Below are positions 10,818-22,387 of a DNA stretch of 34,123 nt, one piece after another. Each line of letters opens with the position of its first letter. Positions within the stretch are counted from its first letter, which is position 1. The notes under the pieces were generated by a model. That model had not been told where the DNA came from, did no database searches, and saw only the letters and a program-made list of their open reading frames with translations. Origin of the DNA: an uncultured Erysipelotrichaceae bacterium (GTDB lineage Bacteria; Bacillota_I; Bacilli_A; RF39; UBA660); contig CADCJQ010000013.1 of NCBI GenBank assembly GCA_902801795.1, positions 1 through 34,123 of the forward strand, in the 5' to 3' direction. Made by a program: the position numbers and the translations under genes.

Positions 10818-10877
10818 GTGTTTTTCAAAGAAAAAGTATTATCTTTTATTTTATGCTTCAAAATTGAAAAAATCTGT

Positions 10878-10883
10878 TATAAT
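10878..10883 (+). promoter_or_regulatory. -10 element of rnc
   Basis: TATAAT at 10878-10883, 22 bp before the GTG start. The -35 region around 10854-10860 is weak. Confidence 0.5.
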
Positions 10884-10904
10884 AATAGTAGTGGAGGATT
10901 AATA

Positions 10905-11579
10905 GTGAACGATTTTTTTGAAAAATATGGCATTATACCTAATAATCGAAAACTTTACGAAACTGCTTTATCGCATTCGTCTTATGCCAATGAACATAAT
11001 GAGAAAAGAGATTATGAAAGATTAGAGTTTTTAGGAGATGCTGTTTTAGAACTTGTTGTAAGTGAGTATTTATATAAAAATTATGAGCAAAATGAAGGTA
11101 GTATGACAAAAATGCGAGCTAATTTTGTTTGTGAAAATGCCAATTATGAATATATGCAAAAAATTGGGTTATATAAATATATTAAAGTTGGTCATGGAGA
11201 GACGGGTAATGTTAAAAAAGCAATTGTTGCTGATATTTTTGAGGCTTTTATTGGTGCAATATATTTAGATCAAGGATTTGATAAAGTAAAAGACTATATT
11301 TTAAATATTGTTACACCATATATTAATAATAAAACGTATTTTTTTAATGATTACAAATCTATTTTGCAAGAATTGATGCAAACTGATAAAAGAAGTTTTA
11401 CCTATGAATTAGTTGATGAAAGTGGTCCATCGCATGATAAAACGTTTACCATTGTTGTAAGAATAGATAATGTTATATATGGTAAAGGAACTGCTAGTAG
11501 TAAAAAGGAAGCGTGTCAGTTAGCAGCTAAAGATACGTTAGAAAAACTTGCTATAAAAGGGGATGATTTTAATGAATAA
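10905..11579 (+). CDS. rnc: Ribonuclease III
   Basis: Double-strand-specific endonuclease that processes rRNA precursors and cuts sense-antisense duplexes, including toxin mRNA with its antitoxin RNA in type I systems. The 224 aa contain the signature ERLEFLGDAVLEL with the catalytic Glu and Asp. A downstream acidic pair follows in VADIFEAFIGA. A C-terminal double-stranded-RNA-binding domain, about 150-220, includes GKGTASSKKEACQLAA. I chose GTG 10905 because GGAGG (10893-10897) is seven bases upstream; the frame stays open upstream but has no ribosome site. The last 8 bp overlap the start of a pilin-like gene. Confidence 0.94.
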   Translation: MNDFFEKYGIIPNNRKLYETALSHSSYANEHNEKRDYERLEFLGDAVLELVVSEYLYKNYEQNEGSMTKMRANFVCENANYEYMQKIGLYKYIKVGHGETGNVKKAIVADIFEAFIGAIYLDQGFDKVKDYILNIVTPYINNKTYFFNDYKSILQELMQTDKRSFTYELVDESGPSHDKTFTIVVRIDNVIYGKGTASSKKEACQLAAKDTLEKLAIKGDDFNE

Positions 11580-11997
11580 GAAAGGATTTACGCTAATTGA
11601 ACTTTTGGCGGTTATTGCCATTTTAGGGATAATAGGTTTAATTGCTGTACCTAATATGTTAGGAGTATCAGATAATGTGAAAAAAGATCAAATGTTAGAT
11701 GATGCTAAAAAGTTGATTTCTATTGCTAAACTTAAAATCAGTATGGATTATGAGGCTAGAAAATTAAATTCTAAAAGATATACTTTTAGTGAACTAAATG
11801 CTGATAAACAAATAAAAAAAGATCCTGATGGTGGTAATTATATTGAGGCATCATCATATGTAGAATATCAAAATAATGGTGGGGTAGTTAATTATTGTGT
11901 ATATCTTGAAAGCGAAAATAGAGTAATTAAAACTTCTTCAGGAGGATGTGTTTTAGAAACTAATTTATATTCAAAAGAAAATGTTAGAAGTAAATAA
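11572..11997 (+). CDS. Type IV pilin-like protein with class III-type prepilin signal
   Basis: A 141-aa secreted fibre subunit or pseudopilin. The N-terminus MNKKGFTLIELLAVIAIL has the prepilin peptidase site (G before FTLIE), the invariant Glu5 of the mature chain, and a hydrophobic helix to about residue 27. A charged alpha-helical spine and a small C-terminal region with two Cys (near 109 and 126), which could form a disulphide, follow. ATG 11572 sits inside the end of rnc with AGGGG about nine bases upstream; ATG 11563 is less well placed. It resembles ComGC-type pseudopilins, but none of the assembly ATPase, membrane platform or peptidase genes is in the window. Confidence 0.85.
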   Translation: MNKKGFTLIELLAVIAILGIIGLIAVPNMLGVSDNVKKDQMLDDAKKLISIAKLKISMDYEARKLNSKRYTFSELNADKQIKKDPDGGNYIEASSYVEYQNNGGVVNYCVYLESENRVIKTSSGGCVLETNLYSKENVRSK

Positions 11998-12029
11998 AAT
12001 GTAAACATTAAAAAAATATTAAAAAGTTA

Positions 12030-12059
12030 TTGACTTAACGAATATTTGCATGCTAAAAT
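12030..12059 (+). promoter_or_regulatory. Promoter of the second pilin-like gene
   Basis: TTGACT (12030-12035), 18-bp spacer, TGCTAAAAT with an extended -10 (TAAAAT 12054-12059). Confidence 0.75.
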
Positions 12060-12086
12060 TATTTGTGTAAAGTAGAGGAGGAAAAA

Positions 12087-12659
12087 ATGAAAAATATTTT
12101 AAAAAATAAGAAAGGATTTACATTAGTAGAATTACTAGCCGTTATTGTTATTTTAGCTTTAATTATGAGTATTGCAATTATAAGTATGAATGGTATAATG
12201 CAGGGTGCAAGATATGATACAATGAAAGAAACGGGTCTTCAAATAATAAATGGTGTAAGACAGCAATTAACACTTTCAAATGAATTACCAATGGAAAATG
12301 GTGATACAGTATATTGCTACTTTTCTGAGGCTATTTTAAGTAAGGGTGGTAAGACTTCACCATTAGGTGGTACTTTCAAATATTATACAGGTACACCTGA
12401 TCCAACCGATGGTCCATTTGCTCTTGGATATACCGGAGTATTTAAAGTAAAAACTAGTACTGCTCTTGCTTGTACCGAAGGTTCAGGAGAATCTTATGTT
12501 AAGGCTGTAGGTAAAGGTAATGGTAAAAGTCCTGAGTTTAGCATTTGTTTAATTACTAATGAAGGTGGTAACTACTATATAAATGATGCAACAGAAGCGT
12601 CATTATCTAGTAATCGTAATGATGGTATTGTCAAAGGTAATACAAGTAATGGTGGTTAA
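12087..12659 (+). CDS. Second type IV pilin-like protein
   Basis: A 190-aa pilin-like protein. A short basic leader ends in KNKKG, followed by FTLVELLAVIVIL and a hydrophobic helix to about residue 35, so prepilin cleavage after Gly is expected, with Glu5 present. The C-terminal globular part is rich in Gly, Ser and Thr and has several Cys (near 74, 130 and 153), suiting an extracellular domain. ATG 12087 is preceded by GAGGAGG five bases upstream; an earlier in-frame ATG at 12063 has no ribosome site. It has its own extended -10 promoter and a terminator, so it is transcribed separately from the first pilin. Specific function is unknown. Confidence 0.83.
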   Translation: MKNILKNKKGFTLVELLAVIVILALIMSIAIISMNGIMQGARYDTMKETGLQIINGVRQQLTLSNELPMENGDTVYCYFSEAILSKGGKTSPLGGTFKYYTGTPDPTDGPFALGYTGVFKVKTSTALACTEGSGESYVKAVGKGNGKSPEFSICLITNEGGNYYINDATEASLSSNRNDGIVKGNTSNGG

Positions 12660-14788: not shown

Positions 14789-14864
14789 GGCTCTTTAGCT
14801 CAGTCGGTAGAGCAAGGGACTGAAAATCCCTGTGTCGGTGGTTCGATTCCACTAGGAGCCACCA
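14789..14864 (+). tRNA. tRNA-Phe (GAA)
   Basis: Acceptor GGCTCTT/AGGAGCC (one G-U), anticodon GAA, encoded CCA. Last gene of the tRNA operon. Confidence 0.97.
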
Positions 14865-14901
14865 TTTGAAATAGACTCGAATCGTCGAGCTTTAATAAAT
14901 G

Positions 14902-14928
14902 AAAAGAACTTGAAAAAAGTTCTTTTTT
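14902..14928 (+). terminator. Terminator of the tRNA operon
   Basis: AAAAGAACTT (14902-14911) pairs with AAGTTCTTTT (14917-14926), 5-nt loop, T run. The stem also contains the -35 of the next promoter. Confidence 0.85.
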
Positions 14929-14938
14929 ATGTTATTAT
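14910..14938 (+). promoter_or_regulatory. Candidate promoter of the convergent antisense RNA
   Basis: TTGAAA (14910-14915), 17-bp spacer, TATTAT (14933-14938). It points toward the small membrane-peptide gene; expected start is near 14945. Confidence 0.5.
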
Positions 14939-14944
14939 GAATAT

Positions 14945-15071
14945 GAGTGAAGGAAACTTCATAAAATAAAAAGGAAACATTCAGTATTTGCATGCTGAAT
15001 GTCTACCAAAATAATTTTGTGTGGACATTTAAGTTATTACATTAAGTAATATACTTAAGTGTCATTTTTTT
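14945..15071 (+). ncRNA. Candidate antisense/antitoxin RNA, about 125 nt
   Basis: This interval lacks a plausible reading frame but is bracketed by a promoter (14910-14938) and a strong terminator hairpin (15024-15071). Hairpin A is ACATTCAG/CTGAATGT (14977-14984 with 14995-15002). An alternative hairpin B pairs AATGTCTAC (14998-15006) with GTGGACATT (15021-15029) and excludes both A and the terminator stem. The predicted RNA overlaps the 3' part of the minus-strand small-peptide mRNA by about 100 nt, as RatA overlaps txpA mRNA in B. subtilis (comparison only). No transcript data are available; the ends are inferred. Confidence 0.45.
15024..15071 (+). terminator. Long terminator hairpin of the candidate antisense RNA
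   Basis: GACATTTAAGT plus TATTAC (15024-15040) pairs with GTAATA (15046-15051) plus ACTTAAGTGTC (15053-15063). That is 17 bp with one G-U pair and one bulge around loop ATTAA, followed by seven T. Confidence 0.75.
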
Positions 15072-15154
15072 ATTACTATTATCAAAATTGATAAAAAAAA
15101 TAAAATGAGTGAAGTGTATTTAAGAATATTTATAATAAATAGTCTTTTACTCAT
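15062..15154 (-). CDS. Small hydrophobic membrane peptide, candidate type I toxin (30 aa)
   Basis: A 30-residue peptide: basic start (MSKR), one hydrophobic membrane span of about 20 residues centred on TSLILFFLSILIIV, and a basic end (KK). That is the profile of type I toxins and other small membrane peptides; I see no direct sequence match to a named family. The ribosome site AGAGGT (15166-15161) with GAG behind it is close to consensus. I chose the second of two tandem ATGs (15154) for spacing; ATG 15157 is possible. A near-consensus promoter lies 65 bases upstream. The ribosome site is fully paired in a hairpin. The stop falls in the terminator stem of the convergent RNA. Confidence 0.6.
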   Translation of the reverse strand: MSKRLFIINILKYTSLILFFLSILIIVIKK

Positions 15155-15160
15155 CATCTC

Positions 15161-15190
15161 ACCTCTTTCCAAAAGGAATAGAGGTAGACA
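15161..15190 (-). promoter_or_regulatory. Hairpin sequestering the ribosome site of the small peptide
   Basis: In the minus-strand mRNA ACCTCT (15185-15180) pairs with AGAGGT (15166-15161) and TTCC (15178-15175) with GGAA (15170-15167), with one bulged A and loop TTTT. The Shine-Dalgarno bases are all paired. The adjacent TGTCTACC (15190-15183) is complementary to GGTAGACA at 15007-15000 in the same mRNA's 3' region. Confidence 0.7.
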
Positions 15191-15218
15191 CCCAGCAACT
15201 AAATATTTCCTACTGATA

Positions 15219-15247
15219 ATTATATAAAAGAGTTATCGATAAGGCAA
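15219..15247 (-). promoter_or_regulatory. Promoter of the small membrane peptide
   Basis: On the minus strand TTGCCT (15247-15242), 17-bp spacer, TATAAT (15224-15219). Expected start is near 15212, giving a 5' leader of about 58 nt. Confidence 0.75.
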
Positions 15248-15252
15248 GGTGA

Positions 15253-15282
15253 TTTACATAATGTTTCAAAATTTAATATAAT
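15253..15282 (+). promoter_or_regulatory. Promoter toward the gene relic and sigG
   Basis: TTTACA (15253-15258), 18-bp spacer, TATAAT (15277-15282), followed by AAAGGAG at 15296-15302. It probably served the relic below and may still transcribe sigG. Confidence 0.5.
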
Positions 15283-21262: not shown

Positions 21263-21460
21263 TATTCCTTGCGATGTTTCAGAATTATTATTGATAGTGG
21301 AGAAATTCCTATAAAATTTGATTGATTCTTTGTTTATAGAATTATTGAAAATGAACAAGAAAGATTTTTAAATTCTATCTTTAGTAATGATTATCTTCCT
21401 TTTACTATTCTTACTATTTATAGTTTTAATATAAAAGAAATCCACCTAACAGCTTGTTAG
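21263..21460 (+). pseudogene. Degraded coding relic
   Basis: In the frame of the upstream SDR gene, the sequence beyond its stop reads as protein-like: CFRIIIDSGEIPIKFD, a TGA, then FFVYRIIENEQERFLNSIF and more up to TAG at 21458-21460. No start or ribosome site is seen. I do not recognise the protein. It looks like the remnant of a lost gene. Confidence 0.35.
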
Positions 21461-21539
21461 GTGGAAACTATTCTATGGCAACATCCAACCTTGCGAATTA
21501 GGTGTTCCATTTTTAATATATGCAAGTTTTCTTGCTTAC
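21430..21539 (-). ncRNA. Candidate structured small RNA, about 110 nt
   Basis: This minus-strand stretch is bracketed by an extended -10 promoter (21546-21574) and an 11-bp terminator hairpin. It starts with a GCAAG/CTTGC hairpin (21535-21522), and nests ACCT/AGGT and GGAAC/GTTTCC pairings. Bases 21441-21510 are about 43% GC, well above the surrounding intergenic DNA, which in AT-rich genomes often marks structured RNA. No convincing reading frame is present. I could not match it to a named RNA class. Confidence 0.4.
21441..21465 (-). terminator. Terminator on the minus strand
   Basis: TCCACCTAACA (21465-21455 read on the minus strand) pairs with TGTTAGGTGGA (21451-21441), 3-nt loop, followed on the minus strand by TTTCTTTTAT. 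There is no T run on the plus side. Confidence 0.7.
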
Positions 21540-21545
21540 ATACTT

Positions 21546-21574
21546 ATATTACCACAAAATGTTATTAATATTAA
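21546..21574 (-). promoter_or_regulatory. Candidate promoter of the minus-strand small RNA
   Basis: Extended -10 TGGTAATAT (21554-21546) with TTAATA (21574-21569) 17 bp upstream. The rest of 21575-21746 shows no gene or clear signal. Confidence 0.4.
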
Positions 21575-21746
21575 TAGGCAATTTTTGTGTGAGAATCGTT
21601 AATAATAGAATAATATGAGTAAAGACAATTCTCAAAGACTTTTACAGCCACTTTTAGGCAATAGTATAATTTTGTGTATAAAAATATTTTATATGAATAT
21701 AATATTATTGTATATTGTTAGAATGTTATGTTTTGGATATTATATA

Positions 21747-21801: not shown

Positions 21802-22083
21802 ATGGAGGCATTAACAAGTGCTATTAGTGTACAAGTTGATACACATGACAAAGAAATTGCAAATAGCATACTAAAAAATCTTGGACTTAATATGAGTACA
21901 TTTGTTAATATGGCTATTAAGCAATTAATCTATCGTGATGGTCTTCCTTTTGAAGCAAGAAATCCTAAACCAAGCAGAGAATTATTAGAAGCATTACAAG
22001 AAGGGGAAGATATTTTAAGTGGGAAAGTAAAAGCTAAAAGTTATCATAATATGTACGAAATGCTGGAGGATTTAAAGAAATAA
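21802..22083 (+). CDS. RelB/DinJ-family antitoxin
   Basis: A 93-aa type II antitoxin. Residues 1-55 form the ribbon-helix-helix DNA-binding part (ISVQVDTHDKEIANSILKNLGLNMSTFVNMAIKQ), with the LGLNMSTFVNM signature of the RelB/DinJ family. The charged C-terminal tail from about residue 60 should wrap the toxin. GAGGTG lies five bases before the ATG. The toxin gene begins one base after its stop, the usual antitoxin-first order. Autoregulation through the palindrome at 21768-21778 is likely. Confidence 0.92.
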   Translation: MEALTSAISVQVDTHDKEIANSILKNLGLNMSTFVNMAIKQLIYRDGLPFEARNPKPSRELLEALQEGEDILSGKVKAKSYHNMYEMLEDLKK

Positions 22084-22084
22084 T

Positions 22085-22387
22085 ATGTTTGATTTAAAAA
22101 ATACAAAATTTGATGTTCAATATACAAGTAAGTTTAAAAAAGACTTTAAAAAAATGTTAAAACAAGGAAAAGATGAAAACAAATTTCTTGAAGTACTTAG
22201 CAAATTAGCCAATGGATTGGAATTAGATGAAAAATTTAGAAATCATTTACTAACAAATAGTAAACATTATAAAGATTGTAATGAATGTCATATTGAACCT
22301 GATTGGCTATTAATATATAAAATAGAAGATAAAAAATTGGTGCTATTACTTTTTGCTACTGGAAGCCATAGTGATCTATATTTATAA
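22085..22387 (+). CDS. YafQ/RelE-superfamily mRNA interferase toxin
   Basis: A 100-aa RelE-fold ribonuclease that, in the YafQ group, cleaves mRNA in the ribosomal A site. It shows the YafQ pattern: TSKFKKDFKKMLKQGKD near the N-terminus, then NHLLTNSKHYKDCNECHIEPDWLLIYKIE and ATGSHSDLYL. The His residues and the Asp-Trp pair at the expected catalytic positions are present. Its own ribosome site is poor (GGAGGA is 14 bases upstream), so expression probably depends on coupling to the antitoxin, limiting free toxin. A terminator overlaps its end. Confidence 0.92.
   Translation: MFDLKNTKFDVQYTSKFKKDFKKMLKQGKDENKFLEVLSKLANGLELDEKFRNHLLTNSKHYKDCNECHIEPDWLLIYKIEDKKLVLLLFATGSHSDLYL

Follow-up and report, generated by a model that had tools for sequence, protein, structure and literature searches.

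A candidate chromosomal type I toxin-antitoxin module behind a tRNA operon and its apparently undescribed multi-copy family in uncultured gut Bacilli

Results and Discussion

The locus and its two putative RNAs

Behind a tRNA operon, the window (the whole stretch of DNA analysed, 34,123 nucleotides) holds a short hydrophobic reading frame facing an apparent small RNA on the opposite strand, which raises the question of whether the two form a type I toxin-antitoxin module and, if so, of which family. We consider it very likely (probability about 0.88) that the locus is a chromosomal type I module of an undescribed multi-copy family, the toxicity, the transcripts and the RNase III processing being inferred. 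This reading is by far the best fit, given a peptide conserved at the codon level and a convergent antisense RNA whose promoter is conserved family-wide. The features discussed below are:

10818 to 11579: rnc (RNase III), Pfam-confirmed, 3.3 kb upstream of the module
14902 to 14926, plus strand: intrinsic terminator of the tRNA operon, AAAAGAACTT-GAAAA-AAGTTCTTTT, whose loop holds the antitoxin -35
14910 to 14938, plus strand: putative antitoxin promoter, TTGAAA (14910-14915), N17, TATTAT (14933-14938), with extended -10 TGTTATTAT
14945 to 15072 (end approximate), plus strand: putative antisense antitoxin RNA, about 125 nt
14948 to 14961, plus strand: antitoxin 5' hairpin, TGAAG-GAAA-CTTCA (GCAAG-GAAA-CTTGC elsewhere among the copies)
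14962 to 15002, minus strand: intrinsic terminator of the putative toxin mRNA, hairpin 15002-14977, T-tract 14974-14962
15024 to 15074, plus strand: antitoxin terminator, hairpin 15024-15063, T-tract 15064-15074 (sequence and fold)
15062 to 15154, minus strand: putative toxin ORF of subfamily A, 30 aa, translation MSKRLFIINILKYTSLILFFLSILIIVIKK
15161 to 15185, minus strand: SD-sequestering hairpin, ACCTCT (15185-15180) with AGAGGT (15166-15161)
15183 to 15211, minus strand: leader at the 5' end of the toxin mRNA, mimicking the antitoxin core and complementary to the 3' end of the same mRNA
15219 to 15247, minus strand: putative toxin promoter, TTGCCT (15247-15242), N17, TATAAT (15224-15219), matching the consensus at 10/12 positions
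21351 to 21434, plus strand: decayed toxin ORF of a second copy (subfamily D) with an in-frame TAA, MNKKDF*ILSLVMIIFLLLFLLFIVLI
21478 to 21577, minus strand: the decayed copy's antitoxin promoter together with the 5' half of its antitoxin, model match E = 2.7e-8

An earlier note on this DNA had claimed the 30-residue minus-strand peptide at 15154-15062, its TTGCCT-N17-TATAAT promoter and SD site, and a convergent plus-strand promoter and terminator delimiting an RNA of about 125 nt, all of which held upon inspection of translation, sequence and fold. Its claim that this RNA overlaps the 3' half of the peptide mRNA had to be corrected, since the overlap comprises the last 10 nt or so of the ORF and almost the entire 3' UTR (about 90 nt), not half of the ORF. 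It had not noticed that the module is multi-copy and docks at tRNA genes, that its antitoxin promoter is embedded in a terminator, or that the toxin mRNA has an SD hairpin and a 5'-3' closure; the decayed copy at 21351-21577 had escaped it too.

The SD of the window copy is AGAGGT (15166-15161, minus strand), the sequence preceding the ORF being AAAGAGGTGAG, and an alternative ATG at 15157-15155, one codon 5' of the toxin start, would yield 31 aa. The U-tract of the antitoxin is the complement of the A-run encoding the C-terminal Lys-Lys of the toxin. Promoter-like sites are not enriched in the 3-kb region (17, versus 15.0 +/- 3.7 in shuffles) and, as such matches are equally frequent in shuffles, the promoter layout alone is weak evidence. 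The promoters are supported because the antitoxin -10 is conserved across copies, being among the most conserved columns in an alignment of 53 diverse copies. A TATAAT-type -10 lies directly 5' of the leader in most copies; here the shuffle control was weak and too permissive to be informative. Type I systems require an antisense RNA that is complementary to the toxin mRNA and has a promoter and a terminator of its own; here this holds at the sequence level only, and transcription of either strand remains an inference from sequence. A leaderless plus-strand peptide (ATGAGTGAAGG...) was ruled out, its start codon not being conserved. Several subfamily-A toxin promoters of the window's genus (L002, L007, L041, L060) carry GAGGACA about 15-20 nt 5' of the -10, possibly an operator or an alternative -35.

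Copies, codon-level selection and distribution

The earlier note had called for a search of related genomes with the peptide and its flanks, and held that a peptide not conserved at the codon level in relatives would refute its proposal. A blastn search with positions 14860-15260 against the window's genome and 39 relatives gave many strong homologous stretches, corresponding both to full modules and to the antitoxin 5' part alone. Nearly all full copies encode a hydrophobic peptide of 25-31 aa behind an SD, at the equivalent position on the opposite strand. A profile built on the 5' half of the antitoxin together with its promoter identified 177 distinct copies among all fetched loci, in 148 of which a script called a small hydrophobic ORF; about 12 of these calls were spurious, and 125 copies were retained for the tests. 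The peptides fall into five subfamilies, A (MKTKTFIIKVLKLIAIILFLLIIMIVVIKK-like, which includes the window copy), B (MRKSEKYLCTIIILLIIVILIILIKIVPTV), C (MTKREFSQFIIILLLFLVVIILLLK), D (MNKKDFLILSLIILIFLLVLLLFIVLI) and E (MKKKDLLISFLILIIILLIVSLMILCIKK), and a sixth, F (MRVREFSLFIVIYVLLIIVIILLLR), was seen in the window's genome; the start of the antisense RNA is common to all six.

Orthologous peptides occupy the equivalent site in 41 subfamily-A copies. Within subfamilies, and using only pairs at least 70% identical, pN/pS in the peptide frame was 0.43, 0.51, 0.22, 0.30 and 0.14 for A to E, respectively, as against 0.58-0.74 and at least 0.95 in the other two frames (0.74 and 0.95 for subfamily A). 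In each of the five subfamilies tested, purifying selection acts on the codons of the peptide frame; the refutation named in the earlier note did not materialise, and the short hydrophobic ORF has the conservation required of a type I toxin. The membrane location of the 30-aa single-helix peptide is inferred, and so is its toxicity, which we regard as very likely in the absence of expression or toxicity data; hydrophobic peptides out of AT-rich DNA are easily over-interpreted.

Homologous copies are spread across a single bacterial family. In a class sample of 395 genomes, a distribution model (R1, 99 positions) matched 37/54 genomes of the same family and 1/341 others, and in a phylum sample it matched ten genomes of the same family and one other. 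The window's genome, 71% complete, gave 12 matches at E<1e-4; all genomes in the analysis are MAGs. A second and a third family each contributed a single examined copy, intact in the former (G210) and without its start codon in the latter (G540); both may reflect contamination or transfer. Copies in public records come almost exclusively from uncultured gut Bacilli, 'Tenericutes', 'Mycoplasma sp.', Erysipelotrichaceae MAGs and Candidatus Ventrenecus, hosts resembling the RF39-type lineage. Modules also occur in tandem, three or four in a row at spacings of a few hundred nt, sometimes with mixed subfamilies (L141, L168, L121).

The claim that the peptide matches no known family, and could represent a new one, also held. 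Rfam returned only tRNAs at the gathering threshold, with chance matches besides at E<=10, and sequence searches of Pfam, NCBIfam, PADLOC and PDB gave no credible match. Pattern scans of IMG/VR gave 0 and then 4 matches, of which only one, itself weak (E = 0.002), scored at or below E = 0.05 under the antitoxin model, and a link to phages can therefore not be drawn; a tblastn search of phages and plasmids with a subfamily-A peptide found no match, a result weakened by the BLAST low-complexity filter. A pattern match in Flavobacterium contained no module under the antitoxin model. The open-access literature searched holds no description of the module family, and one elsewhere is not excluded.

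Folding of the toxin mRNA and the antitoxin

The 246-nt toxin mRNA folds with an MFE of -77.7 kcal/mol (z = -9.1 against dinucleotide shuffles), about 28-30 nt at its 5' end pairing with the final 35 nt or so around a core of 15 continuous bp (15197-15183 with 15007-14993, UGCUGGGUGUCUACC:GGUAGACAUUCAGCA). When complementarity was scored by contiguous stems, the best pairing of a leader with its own 3' UTR reached 28-31 per subfamily, compared with 17-21 when the UTR came from another subfamily and 17-18 when it was shuffled. The two sides co-vary, as in GUUGAGUGUCUACC/GGUAGACAUUCAAC, GUUGAGUGCUUGCC/GGCAAGUACUCAAC, UUAGGUACUAUUCC/GGAAUAGUACCUAA and AUCAGAUGCUUU/AAAGCAUCUGAU; with leader and 3' side anchored independently, 89.8% of cells were paired, versus 82.1% with partners shuffled, and 0/1000 shuffles matched the value of the true pairs. 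Subfamily E showed no 5'-3' excess over shuffled partners, nor over other subfamilies, the latter because D and E share the segment. Since the 3' target of the leader is also that of the antitoxin, the toxin mRNA effectively carries its own version of the antitoxin core in its leader.

The other subfamilies have segments comparable to the anti-SD segment of the window copy, those of D and E being weaker. The paired probability of the SD exceeded that of shuffles in A and C and less so in B and D, the signal being small or absent in D and absent in E. A primary transcript kept translation-inactive by a masked SD or a 5'-3' interaction is thus supported by folding and covariation only, on which the inference that the full-length toxin mRNA is closed end to end also rests.

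The 128-nt antitoxin likewise folds stably (z = -6.6 against dinucleotide shuffles). Its second hairpin is the toxin mRNA terminator when read on the opposite strand, and it covaries among 53 sequences, with pairing in 97.3% of cells and 55 double-sided changes (0/500 shuffles). Paralogues in the window's genome have 3' UTR runs in common of no more than 10 nt across subfamilies, against 10-23 nt inside one, so the antitoxins should be largely cognate.

tRNA docking and LexA-type boxes

Among the 181 copies with enough upstream sequence, 56 (about 31%) have a tRNA gene within 250 nt upstream, compared with 2.3% of random positions in the same loci. The antitoxin of docked copies is always co-directional with the tRNA (0 opposite), and the tRNAs vary (Met, Leu, Arg, Thr, Gln, Lys, Phe and others). 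The antitoxin -35 lies within an intrinsic terminator hairpin in 39/56 tRNA-docked and 25/124 other copies, versus 0.7% of shuffles, which indicates a fusion of the module promoter with the tRNA terminator. In four congeners, the stretch of about 2.2 kb preceding the sigma gene contains neither a tRNA gene nor a module, so no empty-site comparison is possible. A short inverted CTCGA...TCGAG lies between the last tRNA and the terminator (14885-14897), and this element recurs in the trailers of several tRNA-docked copies from different genera.

A LexA-type box, RAACRNRYGTTY, is present in 35/125 toxin promoters (0.24% when shuffled), and in relatives lexA itself is preceded by a box of like kind. 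The toxin promoter of the window copy was searched and holds no such box. SOS induction of the copies that do carry it is inferred. Boxes such as GAACAAACGTTTG were seen directly 5' of the toxin -10, e.g. in L014, L052, L057, L063, L065, L141 and L185. The LexA-like regulator of the window's genus is short and divergent (178-193 aa; L234, L235, L238, L244), and in 3/4 loci it divergently adjoins a C39-peptidase-like ABC transporter, with AACAAATGTTTAC-type palindromes in between.

Comparison with known type I systems

In mode of control there is a likeness to aapA/IsoA of Helicobacter and Campylobacter and to hok/Sok, which also combine a short membrane peptide and several chromosomal copies with an inactive full-length mRNA, a long-distance 5'-3' interaction and SD-masking hairpins (PMC6733600, PMC8167048). 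The 5'-3' closure that characterises aapA/IsoA is met here by folding and covariation, as a likeness of mode; the peptide is unrelated by family search, the host lineage is instead Bacilli-type, and neither the Hok profile nor the Sok RNA family was matched. Moreover, the SD of aapA is occluded directly by the 5'-3' interaction, whereas that of the new module is masked by a local upstream hairpin, with the 5'-3' duplex outside that hairpin and the leader mimicking the antitoxin.

The convergent, 3'-overlapping layout and the presumed use of RNase III are shared with txpA/RatA and bsrG/SR4 (PMC8167048, PMC8309996), yet these systems, along with bsrE/SR5 and yonT/SR6 of Bacillus subtilis, gave no Pfam or Rfam match, and no family of TxpA/BsrG or holin-like toxins was matched for either toxin or RNA. 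The B. subtilis examples reside on prophages or the skin element, unlike the new modules, which dock behind tRNA genes, and a 5'-3' leader mimic is not described for them in the open-access literature searched. Fst/RNAII (par of pAD1) and the Fst-like chromosomal loci similarly have convergent RNAs, a short toxin (Fst, 33 aa) and an SD masked by an intramolecular stem-loop (PMC8167048, PMC8309996). However, the repeats of the new module are inverted rather than direct, with the leader/core sequence common to both RNAs; the APXXXGXXX motif of Fst/Ldr is absent from the window peptide, the Fst Pfam model did not match, and no family appeared at E<=1.

As for tisB/istR-1, dinQ/agrB and symE/symR of E. 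coli, which are given as SOS-inducible (PMC6563280), their SOS-controlled toxin promoters resemble what we infer for the LexA-box copies; lineage and peptides differ, the new module overlaps in cis at the 3' end, and the window copy itself lacks the tisB-like feature.

Proposed mechanism and alternative explanations

In the mechanism we propose, a minus-strand mRNA of about 245 nt (from about 15212 to about 14968) would encode the 30-aa single-helix peptide, which would enter the membrane and impair growth. The plus-strand RNA (about 125 nt) would be produced constantly and pair with the entire 3' UTR of the toxin mRNA, the duplex then being destroyed, probably by RNase III. During transcription the anti-SD segment would pair with the SD just 3' of it as a first lock; once the 3' end exists, the leader mimicking the antitoxin core would pair there as a second, closing the mRNA. 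This order of folding events is inferred. Leader and antitoxin would compete for one 3' UTR target, and toxin would be made upon trimming of the 3' end or exhaustion of the antitoxin. In about a quarter of the copies, not including that of the window, toxin transcription may be under SOS control through the LexA-type box. The type I layout claimed in the earlier note is supported, and its rnc, placed there 3.5 kb upstream, was confirmed at 3.3 kb; toxicity and the processing role of RNase III stay inferred.

It could be argued that the locus is a MITE-like or REP-like small mobile repeat that spreads between tRNA terminators and carries the peptide incidentally, as suggested by its multiple and tandem copies behind many different tRNA genes and by the inverted repetition of leader and antitoxin core. 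Against this very unlikely view stand the codon-level selection in five subfamilies, the SD sites 5' of the ORFs, the covarying 5'-3' pairing, the two conserved promoters and the lack of a common outer boundary in the copy alignment (the search for which was not exhaustive). We give similarly little credence to a harmless conserved small membrane protein, such as a stress-response regulator, under antisense RNA control. Purifying selection, LexA-type boxes in 35/125 promoters and the missing toxicity data would be compatible with it, but many paralogues per genome, each with its own antisense RNA, heavy translation locking and frequent ORF decay with the antitoxin part kept are typical traits of toxin modules.

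The antisense RNA might also be mainly a trans-acting regulator or tRNA-operon read-through, its pairing with the toxin mRNA being secondary, given that the antitoxin 5' half is the part best conserved across subfamilies and persists without a recognisable peptide. Nevertheless, the conserved extended -10 and the terminator in front favour separate initiation, and the 3' part of the RNA varies in step with the peptide subfamily while remaining specific (between subfamilies, paralogue 3' UTRs have no shared run longer than 10 nt), making this alternative highly improbable as well.

The type I module thus remains the preferred reading, and a bolder version of it, which we think unlikely, is a family-wide, lineage-specific expansion coupled to tRNA transcription. 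If this were true, the promoter nested in the tRNA terminator would let tRNA-operon activity (growth rate) set the antitoxin supply, the antitoxin-imitating leader would time mRNA closure, and the modules would serve to sense growth or starvation, some copies also receiving SOS input. Type I systems are reported from few phyla and annotation rarely finds them (PMC12390103); the present family is invisible to Pfam, NCBIfam, Rfam and PADLOC. At least 12 matches are found in the window's genome, which is small (about 1.5 Mb), and many others in further genomes from this uncultured gut lineage. The family provides a natural series of more than 100 variants for covariation tests of 5'-3' closure rules, paralogue antitoxin specificity and tRNA-terminator docking, together with candidate SOS-linked type I toxins within a Bacilli-type lineage.

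Decayed copy and neighbouring genes

Like the decayed copy of the window, further copies keep their antitoxin parts without an intact ORF, and retained antitoxin parts with no intact ORF are likewise reported for orz of E. coli (PMC11264685). A type II toxin-antitoxin pair of the RelB/YafQ type (21802-22387) lies shortly downstream of the decayed copy (21351-21577). Two adjoining ORFs (11563-12659), located between rnc and the tRNA cluster, both have type IV pilin-like N-termini, judged by eye (KKGFTLIELLAVI, KKGFTLVELLAVI).
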